DNA of 64,000 nt from Dasania marina DSM 21967 (GTDB lineage: Bacteria > Pseudomonadota > Gammaproteobacteria > Pseudomonadales > Dasaniaceae). Shown piece by piece: positions 31,596 through 38,824 of the stretch. The stretch's first letter is position 1. Every line of letters begins with the position of its first letter. Below the pieces are notes generated by a model. It worked only from the letters and a program-made list of their open reading frames with translations. It was not told the DNA's origin and searched no databases. The stretch is from NCBI RefSeq assembly GCF_000373485.1, contig NZ_KB891576.1, positions 434,001 through 498,000 of the forward strand, written 5' to 3'. The translations under genes were made by a program, and so were the position numbers.

Positions 31596-31704
31596 CTGCG
31601 CCCTAAGCATCCTTAAAAAACGCAGGTAGAGCAGACTCCCCGTCAGCAGTACACATTAACAATAAATAGCACTGGCGATGTAGAAAGTGCCAGTAGGAGA
31701 CAAC

Positions 31705-34700
31705 ATGACAAGCAATACAACAACCACGGCATACACCCCCGCCGTACCGGCCATCATAGAGCAAAACCCCATACGCAGCGGCGATGACTGGCAACAAATG
31801 CGCACCGCCTGTGAGCAAGACCTAGGCGCTTTTCACGGTGACATCGCCGCCAAAAACTGCCATTGGTTTAACGCTGAACAAAACGCATGGCTCAGCAAAA
31901 CCGACAACGGCTGGACCGGCTGGAATACCAGCGGCCAGCCCGTAGACCTAGCCCAGTGGACACCTTGGCACACCGCCCTAGACGAAAGCGACGCACCTTT
32001 TTACCGCTGGTTTATAGGCGGCAAAACCAACGCCGCCTTTAACGAAGTTGACCGCCACGTATTAGCTGGCCACGGCGCTGAAACCGCTTTCTTCTACGAA
32101 GGTGACCGCTGGGATCCAACCGCTAACGGCGGCAAAGGTGGCCCAGTACAACACTATGCCATGTCGCGCCGCGACTTAATGATTCAGTCAGTATTAGCGG
32201 CACAAGCTTTACGCGACCTAGGCTTGCAATGCGGCGACCGTATCGCCATCAACATGCCGAATATACTTGAGCAAATCGTGTGGACCGAAGCAGCCAAGCG
32301 CGTAGGCGTCATCTACACACCGGTATTTGGTGGTTTTTCTGATAAAACTTTATCTGATCGCATAGAAAACGCAGGCGCTCGTATTGTTATCACCGCCGAT
32401 GGTGCAGCACGTAACGCCGAAGTGGCGGGTTTTAAAGAAGTGTATACCGACCCCGCTTTAGATAAATATATCTCTATCACTTCTGCTTTAGATATTCTTG
32501 CTAACGCCAACGTTGATGACGCATTAAAAACCAAAATTGTTGCTCATGTAACAGACGTACTCGGTGGCGAAATTACTTTAAGCCGCGCCGAAGTCATGCG
32601 CGAAGTGGGCCAAATTTTAGCGAAGGCACAATTGAGTGCTGAAGACACCGCCGAGTTACGTGGCGAATTAGCTGCGGCATTATCTAACTCCCCCGCCCGT
32701 GTAGAAAAAGTGGTGGTGGTACGCCACGCAGGCTTAAGCGACTTGCCTTGGTCAGAAGGCCGCGACGTATGGGCACACGATTTATTAGCCGATGCTGAAC
32801 AAAAAATATTAACCAACGCCGGTTTAAAAACACGCGCTGACTTGGACGCCTTAAGCGATCAAGACTTAGTCGCCGCATTGTACAAATCGGTACAACCCGT
32901 AGAGGTAGATGCTGAATTCCCCCTATTCATCATCTACACCTCGGGCTCAACGGGCAAACCCAAAGGCGTAGTGCATGTACACGGCGGCTATATTGCCGGC
33001 ATCACCGAAACCATGAAGGTAGCGTTTGACGCAGTACCGGGCAAAGACGTGATGTGGGTGATTGCCGACCCCGGCTGGATCACCGGCCAGTCGTATATGA
33101 TTAGTGGCGCGTTGTCTGCACGCATACCCTCCGTAGTTACCGAAGGCTCACCGGTATTTCCCCACACCGGTAGATTTTCTTCCATCATAGAACGCTATGG
33201 CGTCACCATTTTTAAAGCGGGCTCTACCTTTTTGAAAGGTATTATGACCAACAATCAAAACCGCGCCGACGTCGACCGCTACGACATGTCTTCGGTAAAA
33301 GTCGCCACCTTCTGTGCCGAACCTACGTCACCGTCGGTGCAAGAATTTGCCATGGACTTGATGACACCACAGTACATCAACTCCTACTGGGCTACCGAGC
33401 ACGGCGGCATAGTATGGACTCACCCCTACGGCAATAAAGATTTACCGCTGCGCGCTGATACCCACACTTACCCACTGCCGTGGATATTCGGCGACATCTG
33501 GATTCCACAAGGTAGCGCTGACGAGCAAGGCCGTGTTGGCTTCCGCTCTGCTGAGCACGAAGAAAAAGGCGAAATCGTTATTGCCCGCCCTTATCCCTAT
33601 TTAGCGCGCACCATTTGGGGCGACAGCAATAATGTAGGTAAGCCCGACTGGAAAGGCGATATCGCGCGTTTTGAAAAAACTTATTTTGGCAGCTACCGCA
33701 ATGACGATGGCACACCTGCCTACGGTTATTTGCAAGGTGACTTTGCCCGTAACTATGAAGATGGCAGTTTCTCATTACACGGCCGATCGGATGACGTTAT
33801 CAATGTATCGGGACACCGTATGGGTACCGAAGAAATTGAAGGTGCTATCTTAAAAGACAAGCAAGTTAACCCCGATTCAAAAGTCGGCAACTGTATTGTT
33901 ATAGGCGCACCGCACACGGCAAAAGGTTTAACACCCTTGGCTTTTATCTTGCCTATGGCTGGCGCGCACATCACCCGTGATGACGAGCGTAAGCTAAAAG
34001 AATTGGTACGCGAAGAAAAAGGGATTGTTGCCGTTCCTTCAGACTTCATCACCGTTTCTGCTTTTCCAGAAACGCGCAGTGGAAAATACATGCGCCGTTT
34101 CTTAAAAGCGATTGTTCTCGGTGAAGAGTTGGGTGACACCACCACACTACGCAACCCAGAATGTTTAGACGAGATACGCGCAGCAGTAGCTAACTGGCAA
34201 GCAGGCCAAGACCGTGCCGAGCGTCAAACCATTACTGAAACCACACGCACATTGCGTATTGAATACGCGCCAGTTGGCACTAAAAATGGCGTAGCCATAC
34301 GCGTTGCCACCGTCACCATTACCAACCCACCGGTTAATGCTTTATCTGAGCGTTTACTGGATGAATTGGAAACAGCACTCACCCACATAGCGCGTCGCTC
34401 CGATATAGGCGCAGTAGTGTTAGCCGGTGCAGGTAACAAAGCCTTTGTGGCCGGTGCCGACGTGCGCCAATTATTAGAAGACGTACACGATGCCGCCGCC
34501 GCGCGCTCACTGCCTTCTAAGGCGCATGCCGTCGCCAATATGATAGAAAACATGAGCAAGCCGGTGATAGCTGCTGTTGAGGGCGTAGCCCTAGGCGGTG
34601 GTTGTGAGATGGCACTAGCTTGCCACTTGCGGGTGGCGAACAGCCGCACTATTTTCGGCCAGCCAGAAATTAACTTGTACCTGCCACCGGGTTACGGTGG

Positions 34701-37110
34701 CACCCAACGTTTACCACGTGTTTTGATGGATGCGGCGGGTGATGATGCCATTACCGGCTTAAATCGCGCCATGGCTATGCTGTTATCGGGCCGTCAAATT
34801 AAAGGCCAACAAGCTAACGAGTTTGGTTTAGTTGATAAATACTGCACCGGCACTGACAGCGTATTACCGGCCGCGCAAGCACTGGCACGTGCAGCAGCAC
34901 TTAATGGTGCAGGCGATGCCATTAATGCCATGAACAAACGTCACCAGGCAGTGGCGCGCTGGAATCTAGCGGCAAGCTTCCCCGCAGCGACCTTAGACGA
35001 TGACTACGTACAAATTTGTATTAAGGCATCCGAACAAGCAGGCCGCGGCCCCGTTGCCCACGCTATTGTAGGTTTAGTTAAGCTAGGATTTGAGCAAGGC
35101 TTTAAAGCAGGCTTAAATAGCGAGATAGACACCTTCGCTAAATTTGTGATGGACGAAGAAAACGGCGGTAAAAAAGGCATACAGTTGTTTATGGATAAAC
35201 AATCGCCTGCGCTGCCCAGTAAGGCCCGTAAAGATATTAGCGAGAAAGCTGCGCTAATCGAAAGAGGCGACTTGCTACCTATGGGCGCGCCTTACTTAGC
35301 CGGTATCACCCCCATCCCCAGCTACCAATTAGCGAAGGCGGTTGTTCGCGATGCCAAAACCGGCGCTTACTGCCACGGCGATCCGATCGACGTAGAAGAA
35401 GAAGTCATCATCCCGGTGCCGCAACCAGAGGCTAATGAAGCTTTGGTGTATATGCTGACTTCTGAACTTAACTACAATGATATTTGGGCCATTACCGGCA
35501 TCCCCATTTCATTATTCGATGAGCATGACGAAGATATACACGTCACCGGTTCTGGCGGTATAGGCATAGTGGCAAAAATGGGCGAAGGCCTACAGGGCGA
35601 AGGCCGTTTGGCTGTGGGTAAACTGGTAGTGGTTTATTCCGGTGTGTCTGATGTGCTAGATCCCGCTGCCGGTGTAGACCCCATGTTCACCGACTTTCAT
35701 ATACAGGGTTACCAATCACCCGACGGCTCGCACCAGCAGTTTATGATTTGCTCGGGGCCGCAGATGATAGCCCCCGCCGCTGACTTAAGCTTAGAAACAG
35801 CTGGCTCTTACATGCTACCTGCAGGTACCGCCTATCGCGCCTTATTCCGCGCGTTAGAATTACGCCAAGGCGATAGAATGTTTGTTGAAGGTGCAGCTTC
35901 GGGCACCGGTGCCTGGTCGGTAGAATTAGGTATAGCCGCTGGCGCTAAAATTACCGGTATGGTGTCGTCGGAAGAGCGTTGTGAATATTTACGCAAACAA
36001 GGCTCTGCCGGTATTAATCGTAAAGACTCAGCCATCAAAGATTGCTTCAGCAAAGTCCCTGTCGATGCCATTCAGTGGGCAGAATGGCAGCAACAAGGTG
36101 AAGGATTCTTACAAGCAGTACGTGCAGCTAACGATGGCGAACTGTGTACCCACGGTTTATCACATGCCGGTGAAACCGCCTTCCCACGTAGCTTCCAAGC
36201 GCTAGGCGAAAACGGCGTAATGACCTACTTCGGTGCTAGCTCGGGTTACCACATGACCTTTATAGGCAAGCCCGGTAGCAGCTCAGCTACCGACATGTTA
36301 CGCAAAGCCAAGGCACGACCAGGGCAAGCAACTGTTATCTTCTACGGCAGCCGCACTGGCCAGCGTGATAACGAAGCACTAGCCGCCATTGAAGCGGGCC
36401 GCGCTTCGTCACTACGCATAGTTGTTGTTACCGACACCGATGCCGAACGCGACTTTGTGATGTCCTTAGGTTTTGGTGATGCGGTATTAGGCGCGGTAAG
36501 CCTGACAGAAATTAGACGCCGCGAACCTGAATTCGACTGGCCGGATACCATGGGTGATTTACCTAATCCCGAGTCACCAGAGTTTAAAGAATGCGTGCGC
36601 TTGATGAACGAAAATACCCTTAAGCCCATAGGTAAAGCAGTAGGTAAGTTGTTGCGCTCTGAAGACAACCCACGCGGCCAACCCGACATCATCATAGAAC
36701 GTGCGCACACGGACTCCTTGTTTGCCACCACCATGATGGTGAAACCCCACACCGGCATAGTGATCTACGCCGGTGACATGGGCGGCAAGCGTTACAGCTT
36801 CTACGCACCGCAAGTGTGGATGCGTCAGCGTTCTGTGCTCATGCCTACCGCATCTATAGTCGGCACCCACTTATGTAACGCGGCAGAAATCTTAGGCCTA
36901 AACCAAATGATAGACGCCGGCGCGGTACAAGTACCCGAGCCTTACTTAGGTGAGTGGGATGAAATGGAAAACCTACACCAAGCCATGTGGGAAAACCGCC
37001 TACCGGAAGTGACTAACGGCGCTGTTAAAACCGTTATCAACCACGCCCTACCCATGCACGGCTTAAAATCCATGGATGAGTTGCTGGCGGCGTGGGCTGA
37101 GCAGTCATAG
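31705..37110 (+). CDS. pcs: Trifunctional propionyl-CoA synthase (3-hydroxypropionate to propionyl-CoA)
   Basis: 1801 residues, three fused enzymes. (1) An acyl-CoA synthetase, about 1-850: phosphate loop YTSGSTGKPKGVVH near 410, and the adenylation lysine in ETRSGKYMRRF near 793. (2) An enoyl-CoA hydratase, about 860-1130: oxyanion and acid residues in EGVALGGGCEMALACH and GQPEINLYLPPGYGG. (3) A medium-chain reductase related to crotonyl-CoA reductases, about 1200-1800: ELNYNDIWAITG and nucleotide loop EGAASGTGAWSVELG. This order and size match propionyl-CoA synthase, known from the Chloroflexus 3-hydroxypropionate bicycle and from Erythrobacter. It converts 3-hydroxypropionate, via 3-hydroxypropionyl-CoA and acrylyl-CoA held in a reaction chamber, to propionyl-CoA. 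AGGAG precedes the ATG; a GTG six codons upstream is less likely. A small hairpin (31671-31694) abuts the ribosome site. Confidence 0.93.
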   Translation: MTSNTTTTAYTPAVPAIIEQNPIRSGDDWQQMRTACEQDLGAFHGDIAAKNCHWFNAEQNAWLSKTDNGWTGWNTSGQPVDLAQWTPWHTALDESDAPFYRWFIGGKTNAAFNEVDRHVLAGHGAETAFFYEGDRWDPTANGGKGGPVQHYAMSRRDLMIQSVLAAQALRDLGLQCGDRIAINMPNILEQIVWTEAAKRVGVIYTPVFGGFSDKTLSDRIENAGARIVITADGAARNAEVAGFKEVYTDPALDKYISITSALDILANANVDDALKTKIVAHVTDVLGGEITLSRAEVMREVGQILAKAQLSAEDTAELRGELAAALSNSPARVEKVVVVRHAGLSDLPWSEGRDVWAHDLLADAEQKILTNAGLKTRADLDALSDQDLVAALYKSVQPVEVDAEFPLFIIYTSGSTGKPKGVVHVHGGYIAGITETMKVAFDAVPGKDVMWVIADPGWITGQSYMISGALSARIPSVVTEGSPVFPHTGRFSSIIERYGVTIFKAGSTFLKGIMTNNQNRADVDRYDMSSVKVATFCAEPTSPSVQEFAMDLMTPQYINSYWATEHGGIVWTHPYGNKDLPLRADTHTYPLPWIFGDIWIPQGSADEQGRVGFRSAEHEEKGEIVIARPYPYLARTIWGDSNNVGKPDWKGDIARFEKTYFGSYRNDDGTPAYGYLQGDFARNYEDGSFSLHGRSDDVINVSGHRMGTEEIEGAILKDKQVNPDSKVGNCIVIGAPHTAKGLTPLAFILPMAGAHITRDDERKLKELVREEKGIVAVPSDFITVSAFPETRSGKYMRRFLKAIVLGEELGDTTTLRNPECLDEIRAAVANWQAGQDRAERQTITETTRTLRIEYAPVGTKNGVAIRVATVTITNPPVNALSERLLDELETALTHIARRSDIGAVVLAGAGNKAFVAGADVRQLLEDVHDAAAARSLPSKAHAVANMIENMSKPVIAAVEGVALGGGCEMALACHLRVANSRTIFGQPEINLYLPPGYGGTQRLPRVLMDAAGDDAITGLNRAMAMLLSGRQIKGQQANEFGLVDKYCTGTDSVLPAAQALARAAALNGAGDAINAMNKRHQAVARWNLAASFPAATLDDDYVQICIKASEQAGRGPVAHAIVGLVKLGFEQGFKAGLNSEIDTFAKFVMDEENGGKKGIQLFMDKQSPALPSKARKDISEKAALIERGDLLPMGAPYLAGITPIPSYQLAKAVVRDAKTGAYCHGDPIDVEEEVIIPVPQPEANEALVYMLTSELNYNDIWAITGIPISLFDEHDEDIHVTGSGGIGIVAKMGEGLQGEGRLAVGKLVVVYSGVSDVLDPAAGVDPMFTDFHIQGYQSPDGSHQQFMICSGPQMIAPAADLSLETAGSYMLPAGTAYRALFRALELRQGDRMFVEGAASGTGAWSVELGIAAGAKITGMVSSEERCEYLRKQGSAGINRKDSAIKDCFSKVPVDAIQWAEWQQQGEGFLQAVRAANDGELCTHGLSHAGETAFPRSFQALGENGVMTYFGASSGYHMTFIGKPGSSSATDMLRKAKARPGQATVIFYGSRTGQRDNEALAAIEAGRASSLRIVVVTDTDAERDFVMSLGFGDAVLGAVSLTEIRRREPEFDWPDTMGDLPNPESPEFKECVRLMNENTLKPIGKAVGKLLRSEDNPRGQPDIIIERAHTDSLFATTMMVKPHTGIVIYAGDMGGKRYSFYAPQVWMRQRSVLMPTASIVGTHLCNAAEILGLNQMIDAGAVQVPEPYLGEWDEMENLHQAMWENRLPEVTNGAVKTVINHALPMHGLKSMDELLAAWAEQS

Positions 37111-37167
37111 ACTGCTCAGCAGTAAGCCGCAGGCTTACGGGGACAGATCTTTAGCTCTGTCCCCTTT
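37096..37167 (+). terminator. Three consecutive perfect hairpins at the pcs 3' end
   Basis: First: GCTGAGCAGTC/GACTGCTCAGC (37096-37120, 11 bp), with the TAG stop in its loop. Second: GTAAGCC/GGCTTAC (37122-37138, 7 bp). Third: GGGGACAGA/TCTGTCCCC (37139-37164, 9 bp) followed by TTT. The third may terminate transcription weakly; the array as a whole may protect the very long mRNA. Confidence 0.65.
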
Positions 37168-37169
37168 CG

Positions 37170-37217
37170 CTACAAGCTACAAGCTACAAGCTACAAGCTA
37201 CAAGCTACAAGCTACAA
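37170..37217. repeat. Heptamer tandem repeat (CTACAAG)
   Basis: Six uninterrupted copies of CTACAAG plus a seventh partial copy, beginning three bases after the hairpin tract. Simple repeats with a 7-base period are prone to slippage, so copy number probably varies between strains. Related 7-base repeats occur at 40454-40474 and, degenerate, near 23413-23445. Confidence 0.9.
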
Positions 37218-37397
37218 AAGTATGTTGCTGTTTTATCAATAAACCAGCAACATACTTTTCATAAACCCGTTTTATCTGAAGTCGCTTTTACTTTCTAGAA
37301 GCCACTTCAAATACAACGACGAAGCACCCAACTCCCCTTGGGAGTCGCCGAGCAACGGAGATTTTTAACGGGACGAAGTAGTGAGGGATGTCTGAGT

Positions 37398-37424
37398 ATT
37401 TTGAAGATTTAGTATCTTCAAAAT
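37398..37424. repeat. Strong hairpin heading the intergenic repeat block
   Basis: ATTTTGAAGAT (37398-37408) / ATCTTCAAAAT (37414-37424), 11 bp perfect with a 5-base loop. It lies 28 bases upstream of the first direct-repeat copy and resembles in kind the AT-rich hairpin that begins each copy. Confidence 0.7.
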
Positions 37425-37452
37425 GCGAGTTCCGCAGCGGCCGCTAGTTTCT

Positions 37453-37533
37453 GATTCAAAAATGCTGGAGGCATTTTTTCACCCTACGGGCGCCTTTTGT
37501 AAAACAGGCGTCCAAATTGCTGTGCAATTTGTG
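37453..37533 (+). repeat. Structured direct repeat, copy 1
   Basis: About 81 bases. Hairpins within it: AAAAATGC/GCATTTTT, GGGCGCC/GGCGTCC (imperfect) and AAATTGC/GCAATTT. The outer framework CACCCTACGGGCGCC...AACAGGCGTCCAAATTG is identical in copy 2, while stem bases differ in a paired way. Confidence 0.8.
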
Positions 37534-37598
37534 AGTAGCGCAGGGAACCCGAAGGGCGACGGACTAGGGGTGCCCTTTCTTTTGGTTCTGTTTTCTTT

Positions 37599-37679
37599 GA
37601 TTCAAAAATTCTTCAAGAATTTTTTCACCCTACGGGCGCCTTTAGAAAACAGGCGTCCAAATTGAGGTACAATTTGTGG
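37599..37679 (+). repeat. Structured direct repeat, copy 2
   Basis: About 81 bases, starting GATTCAAAAATTC like copy 1. Its first stem is AAAAATTC/GAATTTTT and its last is AAATTG/CAATTT. Compared with copy 1, both arms of the first stem changed together (TGC/GCA to TTC/GAA), so base-pairing is kept. It is separated from copy 1 by 65 bases. Confidence 0.8.
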
Positions 37680-37772
37680 GCAAACAAAGAAAATGAACTC
37701 GCCTAGCAAGGCGAAACAAAGCCTAACAAAACACTATAAAATAGAACCTTGATCAAAATCACAGGCAACTAG

Positions 37773-37792
37773 ATACCGGCCTTCGCCGGTAT
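37773..37792. repeat. CCGG hairpin repeat, short copy
   Basis: ATACCGGC/GCCGGTAT (8 bp, loop CTTC) followed by GAC, i.e. the ...CCGGTATGAC pattern. It belongs with the longer element at 40365-40435 and the degraded copy at 45261-45286. Confidence 0.65.
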
Positions 37793-37837
37793 GACAAAAA
37801 ACAACTTCCTAGTAGAAAATACAGGCAAACACCCACC

Positions 37838-38824
37838 ATGCAATTCAAAGCACTACTAACCACCGAAAACCAAGGTAACTACGACACCAAACTCGTCACC
37901 CGCCACATCGACGACCTACCCCAAGGCGACTTACTCATTGCCGTTAGCTACAGCTGCCTAAACTACAAAGATGCCCTCTCCACCTCCGGCCACCCCGGCA
38001 TTGCCAAAAACTTCCCCCACACCCCCGGTGTCGATGCCGTAGGCGTGGTCAAAGAAAGCTGCAGCGACAAGTTTAATGTTGGCGATACTGTTATTGTTAC
38101 CGGTCACGACTTTGGCATGCATACCGATGGCGGCCTATCGGAATATATACGCGTGCCCGCAGCTTGGGCCATACCGCTGCCCGCAGGGCTAAGCCCACTA
38201 CAGGCCATGCAACTAGGCACCGCCGGTTTAACCGCGGGTTTAAGCTTATTAAAGCTGGAAGCCATGGGCGCCAAACCCGGCGACAGTGTATTAGTCACCG
38301 GCGCCACCGGCGGCGTGGGCTGCCTTAGCGTAGCCCTGCTAAGCAAATGCGGTTATAAAACTATCGCCAGCAGCGGTAAGGCTCAATACAGCGATAAGCT
38401 AATAGCACTGGGAGCTAGCGAAGTAATAGACCGTAAGCAACTGTCGGAAGACTCCCCCAAGGCACTATTAAAACCCCGCTGGCAACACGCCATAGACTGC
38501 GTAGGCGGCGACACCTTGGTGAATATTTTTAAAACCCTAGCCCCCGGTGGCAGTGTTGCCGCCAGTGGTTTGGTCGCCTCTGCCAACATCAACGCCACGG
38601 TATACCCCTTCATTCTACGCGGCATCAACCTATTGGGCATAGACTCGGTAGGAGTTAGCAATGACCTGCGCATAGCCGTATGGCAGCGCTTTGCCAGCCA
38701 TTGGCAATTAGACTTGCCTCCAGGGTTTGTTACCGAGATAGACTTAGAGCAAGCCTATGATTACATACAGCGATTCAAACAAGGCGACATATTCGGTCGT
38801 ATAGTGGTTAAAATCACCGCATAA
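37838..38824 (+). CDS. acuI: Acrylyl-CoA reductase family (AcuI/YhdH) zinc-independent MDR
   Basis: 328 residues, YhdH/AcuI group of medium-chain reductases. N-terminal YSCLNYKDALSTSGHPGIAKNFPHTPGVDAVG and the NADPH motif VTGATGGVG (154-161, with VAL after) are diagnostic; the family lacks the structural-zinc cysteines. AcuI reduces toxic acrylyl-CoA to propionyl-CoA with NADPH. Acrylyl-CoA is also the trapped intermediate of Pcs, encoded just upstream. The gene lies 727 bases after pcs across a repeat-rich region and probably has its own promoter. There is no good ribosome binding site before the ATG. A generic quinone-oxidoreductase role cannot be excluded. Confidence 0.87.
   Translation: MQFKALLTTENQGNYDTKLVTRHIDDLPQGDLLIAVSYSCLNYKDALSTSGHPGIAKNFPHTPGVDAVGVVKESCSDKFNVGDTVIVTGHDFGMHTDGGLSEYIRVPAAWAIPLPAGLSPLQAMQLGTAGLTAGLSLLKLEAMGAKPGDSVLVTGATGGVGCLSVALLSKCGYKTIASSGKAQYSDKLIALGASEVIDRKQLSEDSPKALLKPRWQHAIDCVGGDTLVNIFKTLAPGGSVAASGLVASANINATVYPFILRGINLLGIDSVGVSNDLRIAVWQRFASHWQLDLPPGFVTEIDLEQAYDYIQRFKQGDIFGRIVVKITA

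Follow-up and report, generated by a model that had tools for sequence, protein, structure and literature searches.

A probable mobile four-hairpin DNA module inserted twice into an intergenic repeat of Dasania marina, with relatives in tRNA T-loops

Given that two copies of a sequence of about 80 bases stand close together between two open reading frames of Dasania marina DSM 21967, we asked what kind of element they represent. The window, by which we mean the whole 64,000-nucleotide stretch analysed, carries them between plus-strand frames at 31687-37110 and 37838-38824. A first-pass annotation had described the block as one structured intergenic element, a direct repeat headed by an 11-bp hairpin, and had offered an RNA, a protein-binding site or a mobile palindrome as its function. 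Both copies lie where it placed them, and their ends, which we set from all copies and from the comparison of filled with empty sites, were refined to 37453-37532 and 37599-37677. We estimate at roughly two in three the probability that each copy is a mobile non-coding DNA module of four hairpins, moved by a putative mechanism. The module measures 79-86 nt and reads GATTC...TTTGT on the window strand and ACAAA...GAATC on the opposite strand. It sits within a larger host repeat, whose parts are given here with the matching bases of a 311-base query, the block itself:

37319-37452, plus strand: left part of the host repeat (ACGAAGCACCC...GCTAGTTTCT); matches to query 1-65
37398-37424, no strand assigned: 11-bp hairpin of the host repeat, seen in the sequence and recurring in other host-repeat copies
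37453-37532, plus strand: module copy 1, 80 nt, GATTC...TTTGT, at host-repeat site A, which is empty in other host-repeat copies
37533-37598, plus strand: middle part of the host repeat (GAGTAGCGCAGGG...TTTTCTTT); matches to query 137-210
37599-37677, plus strand: module copy 2, 79 nt, at host-repeat site B beside the loop of a CTTTG/CAAAG hairpin; site B is empty elsewhere
37678-37717, plus strand: right part of the host repeat (GGGCAAACAAAGAAAATGAACTCGCC...GCGAAAC); matches to query 288-311, with relatives in other genera

Within its own 4.1-Mb genome the 311-base block is partially matched 29 times, itself counted, and these matches are of two kinds, the larger repeat and the module. The larger repeat is hairpin-rich and intergenic, spans about 37319-37717 in the window and would measure about 240 nt without its inserts. 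Own-genome copies that lack the module join its parts directly: query 137-210 adjoins 288-309 or 288-311 at C11:606719-606812 and C1:494291-494390, and query 1-65 adjoins 137-210 or 139-210 at C1:494235-494368 and C1:717626-717757. The direct repeat therefore consists of one module inserted twice into another repeat, and the idea of a single structured element has to be given up; the 11-bp hairpin is real and belongs to the host repeat. Within this repeat the module occupies preferred sites. The insertion point lies mostly between T and G on the window strand, and at filled and empty pairs any target duplication amounts to at most 1-2 ambiguous bases. The search for more copies that the annotation had proposed was productive, with strict full-module matches at 11 places in the own genome and degenerate ones in addition. 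A strict DNA pattern run over genome contigs, possibly with the own genome excluded, found 7 stretches, 4 in Dasania sp. GY-MA-18 and 3 in Microbulbifer litoralis.

The surroundings hold other repeats as well. Between the terminator and the host repeat, 37170-37259 contains a run of CTACAAG heptamers followed by a 21-bp inverted repeat at 37216-37259, and a palindrome, GATACCGG..TTCG..CCGGTATGACA, lies at 37772-37796 and recurs beside host repeats at loci L103, L104 and L105, sometimes with another hairpin inserted within it. The neighbouring 31687-37110 is a single frame of 1807 aa, in which a CoA ligase, an enoyl-CoA hydratase and a reductase seem to be fused, the arrangement of propionyl-CoA synthase.

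When the two window copies were folded as single-stranded DNA, each strand of each gave a z-score between -4.0 and -5.2 relative to 200 shuffled sequences. The paired stem changes first seen between the two copies, AAAAATGC/GCATTTTT to AAAAATTC/GAATTTTT and AAATTGC/GCAATTT to AAATTG/CAATTT, are real. The framework drawn from them needs correction in one respect: its paired stems stand, but two hairpins, a CCC-TNC-GGG mini hairpin and a CGCC/GGCG stem, occupy the module's middle. Covariance model R1 had paired GGG with TCC at the base of hairpin H2; we dropped this pairing because one of its pairs is G-T in 67 of 73 cells, and GGG instead pairs with CCC in the mini hairpin. Of the cells in the 10 own-genome copies, 99.5% are paired, and both sides have changed in 6 of 20 pairs, values as high being found in none of 500 shuffles, and the number of further pair types was not unusual (57/500 shuffles). 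A larger alignment drew on 77 matches from 8 genomes, giving 75 distinct rows, with one place entered twice (L111 = L169). In this set all five covariation measures exceeded all 500 shuffles: standard pairs fill 97.3% of 1508 pair cells, compared with 77.9% after shuffling, and 16 of 21 pairs are altered on both sides (246 such cells), in an alignment fitted to a related structure by a covariance model, which favours its pairing score. Sliding the partner columns by 1-3 lowered pairing to 39.5-53.6%. Chance similarity of the copies is ruled out by the genome-wide matches together with the covariation against shuffles. Collectively, the covariation in the 10 own-genome and the 75 distinct copies strongly supports conservation of the module by structure rather than sequence; further copies exist, and their stem differences do pair, the opposite of what the annotation had named as refuting it.

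We then compared shared loci between the window's genome and a second genome of the same genus (G000 and G001). At L107/L137 both carry the host repeat and only G001 carries a 79-nt module, beside the CTTTG/CAAAG hairpin loop; some of the host repeat's left part is also missing from G001. At L104/L132 an identical module occupies one site in both genomes, and G000 has two additional modules that G001 lacks, a clean case and one where the surrounding stem is altered. At L139 of G001 a module lies within the loop of a terminator hairpin, and the window's counterpart of that loop, at about 37140-37165, is empty, in a comparison whose synteny ends on the far side. The same module ends recur at unrelated sites, and tandem modules in G007 repeat head to tail every 73 nt. 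Filled and empty sites at shared loci make a mobile palindrome the best fit of the three functions first offered; deletion losses could also produce such pairs. A general preference for insertion into hairpin loops was rejected: 21 of 92 insertion points fall in predicted hairpin loops, as do 136 of 552 nearby positions, which is no excess, so we describe only the single cases of site B, the T-loops considered below and the L139 terminator. A different hairpin module (TAGCATGCCCC...TTTGGGTA) is inserted just after GGCGT in modules of L106, L113, L141 and L142; modules thus nest in modules.

To follow the module into other genomes, we used R1, a second model, R2, and a sequence pattern. Of the 10 family genomes, 8 had R1 matches (65 rows at E <= 0.001), and R2, under stricter filters, matched 9 of 276 class genomes, the own genome and 8 others in 7 families. 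The pattern GTTCGA..CCCGNAGGG..ATCC occurred in 86 of 232 class genomes, some of its matches looking like coding sequence, and its reversed control in 6 of 232. Counting a row as tRNA-linked when a tRNA lies at most 700 nt upstream on a fixed strand, we found 31 of 77 family rows to be tRNA-linked, with 22 in the host repeat, 6 with an orphan T-arm flank and 18 in other contexts. The corresponding figures were 15, 0, 6 and 3 for the 24 class rows, and 19, 0, 11 and 0 for the 30 fetched pattern loci, some of which are plainly chance and whose orphan T-arm figure is meaningless because the pattern requires GTTCGA.

Many different tRNA genes have module relatives 3' of them, and 43 of the 65 tRNA-linked rows begin 32-100 nt past the tRNA. 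Most of these copies have the order GGTTCG, ACAAA...GANTC and AATCC, followed by a copy of the same tRNA's 3' end; tRNA-linked modules split a duplicated T-loop. The copied 3' end scored 13.2, 13.9 and 16.8 of 19 against the neighbouring tRNA, compared with 9.4, 10.0 and 10.8 against other tRNAs, and the cognate tRNA beat every non-cognate one in 18 of 31 family, 8 of 15 class and 15 of 19 pattern rows. In the arrays at L114 (19 and 13 of 19) and L141 (19 and 10) the copy that follows the nearest module is perfect and the outer one decayed, as expected if an old end were pushed outward. Both copies are perfect at L152, and at L113, L142 and L154 all are alike and imperfect. Outward displacement is therefore only partly supported. 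The module at L152, L181 and L190 is preceded by the tRNA 3' end in inverted copy and so lies in one arm of a palindrome of tRNA sequence.

The tRNA 3' ends copied beside some modules, in inverted and in direct orientation, are also what might be left if no transposase were involved and template switching during replication at palindromes both spread the hairpins and changed the two stem arms together. The both-sided stem changes with few intermediates agree with such a process, as do the hairpin modules within modules at L106 and L113. Fixed ends that recur at unrelated sites, together with conserved linkers, suggest a defined unit instead, and we regard template switching as an unlikely origin. 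For a mobile module, the form recognised and moved may be a folded single DNA strand, and the mover would be a putative transposase or hairpin-type recombinase acting in trans, with template switching as the alternative. In Dasania the module would then have quit its tRNA niche for a second, widespread repeat.

The host repeat itself is 95-97% alike between the two Dasania genomes, compared with 82-88% for flanking DNA (whole-locus and L107/L137 results), which is as compatible with a selected function as with a selfish element. With three candidates per genome scored, a module-free copy of it matched 24 of 232 class genomes, its own included, mostly through the right half. This conservation above the flanks would suit a BIME-like site, a transcription terminator or attenuator or a site for a DNA-bending protein, whose spread was incidental. 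The rtT-like BIMEs upstream of gatY, rbfA and cvpA have been proposed as attenuators, and an rtT-BIME link is already in print (PMC2965389). Such a site leaves both the splitting of T-loops and the filled and empty sites unexplained, and we consider it improbable as an account of the module.

If the fold functioned as RNA, G-U mismatches would be tolerated on the transcribed strand, and either G-T or A-C would dominate among the mismatches. In 1508 cells of module stems we counted 18 G-T, 15 A-C and 25 other mismatches. Neither the 39 tRNA-linked or T-arm rows (10 G-T, 9 A-C) nor the remaining 36 (8 and 6), with row contexts listed by hand, departed from this balance, compared with 28 G-T and 1 A-C in the acceptor and T stems of 60 tRNAs from the fetched loci. 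A wider set of 23 pattern units gave 4 G-T, 5 A-C and 30 other mismatches; 20 wide pattern units aligned too poorly under MAFFT to support a covariance model. Neither strand shows more G-U than would match its A-C count, and the small counts (33 mismatched cells in a covariance-model alignment) point to stem complementarity kept in DNA and are compatible with transcription. An RNA role for the module stems is disfavoured.

This bears directly on whether the module is a functional small RNA or a processed RtT-type tRNA trailer, with its RNA fold selected and the intergenic copies being extra genes or relics. The module layout equals that of E. coli RtT, and RtT-family RNAs are described as expressed in Thioalkalivibrio (PMC8092127) and Actinobacillus (PMC4986893). 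AaHKsRNA22 of Aggregatibacter (RF02902) has the same order of hairpins and matches the module over its full length (E 6e-5 in one search). The 14 matching rows score 23.3-35.0 bits, the window copies among them 32.3 and 30.0, and all lie on the tRNA strand. Every one of these matches falls below the gathering score of 39.8 bits, in a match list where unrelated Rfam families and chance matches score alike; at the gathering score, Rfam has no match within the window. The missing wobble asymmetry, the occurrence of the module in both orientations within host-repeat copies and its presence or absence between close relatives also count against an RNA, which we judge quite unlikely to be what maintains the module.

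With a mobile DNA module as our preferred reading, we turned to known systems. RtT is filed in Rfam as an RNA of unsettled function. The E. coli K-12 tyrTV locus has three of its 178-bp repeats (RF00391, rttR), with Rfam scores of 133.8-137.5 bits, and the order of their parts (GGTTCG, two hairpins, a CCC-GAA-GGG mini hairpin, a last hairpin, GAGT, AATCC and the tRNA 3' end) is shared by the tRNA-linked relatives, which keep the hairpin order between GGTTCG and AATCC plus the tRNA 3' end. Unlike these, the window copies lie away from tRNA genes inside another repeat, with the hairpins kept and the tRNA flanks absent. The Rfam RtT model matched 43 of 232 class genomes, 16 of them over its cut-off, and of 63 chosen pattern places 53 overlap RtT matches and 10 overlap R2 matches. 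No place within those match lists was matched by both models, none of the 10 family genomes reached the RtT gathering score of 45 bits (best E 0.27), and R2 recognised the E. coli repeats weakly (E 0.039, 0.045 and 0.12), yet as the top three of that stretch. We therefore claim a shared layout and not membership.

Judged by the 86 pattern-bearing genomes, the RtT layout looks widespread in the class. It is linked to tRNA T-loops, and a module with this layout is variably present at shared loci of one genus, its stems kept as DNA. A tentative extension, which we think possible and somewhat doubtful, is that RtT-type repeats across Gammaproteobacteria form one class of selfish DNA: tiny four-hairpin elements that would enter tRNA T-loops in the form of folded single strands. 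Every insertion would supply the tRNA with a new 3' end and displace the old one outward, and the elements could also leave tRNAs and nest in other hairpin repeats. If true, this would be a new kind of mobile element, with the RtT RNA as a by-product. In the literature searched we recognised no paper that describes these modules or connects RtT with mobile DNA across the class. The old RtT puzzle now becomes testable by asking what the mover is and whether tRNA 3' ends are rewritten.

REP and BIME sequences with RAYT (Y1) transposases are likewise short, palindromic, intergenic and high in copy number; unlike them, the module has four hairpins in fixed order and inserts into T-loops. The Y1 transposase domain PF01797 was found in 5 of 9 relatives searched, and RAYT was rejected as the mover, none of the 16 fetched Y1 loci carrying the module at E <= 1. 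At L118, L117 and L125, Y1 (RAYT-like) genes are flanked near their ends by other short direct repeats (AGGGGTC...). Integron attC sites, a further system considered, are marked by R and L boxes, with the gene for an integron integrase close by. A parent transposon for the module was not found, and unlike MITEs it has neither end-to-end terminal inverted repeats nor a clear target-site duplication; like MITEs, it is a small non-autonomous insertion with filled and empty sites at shared loci.
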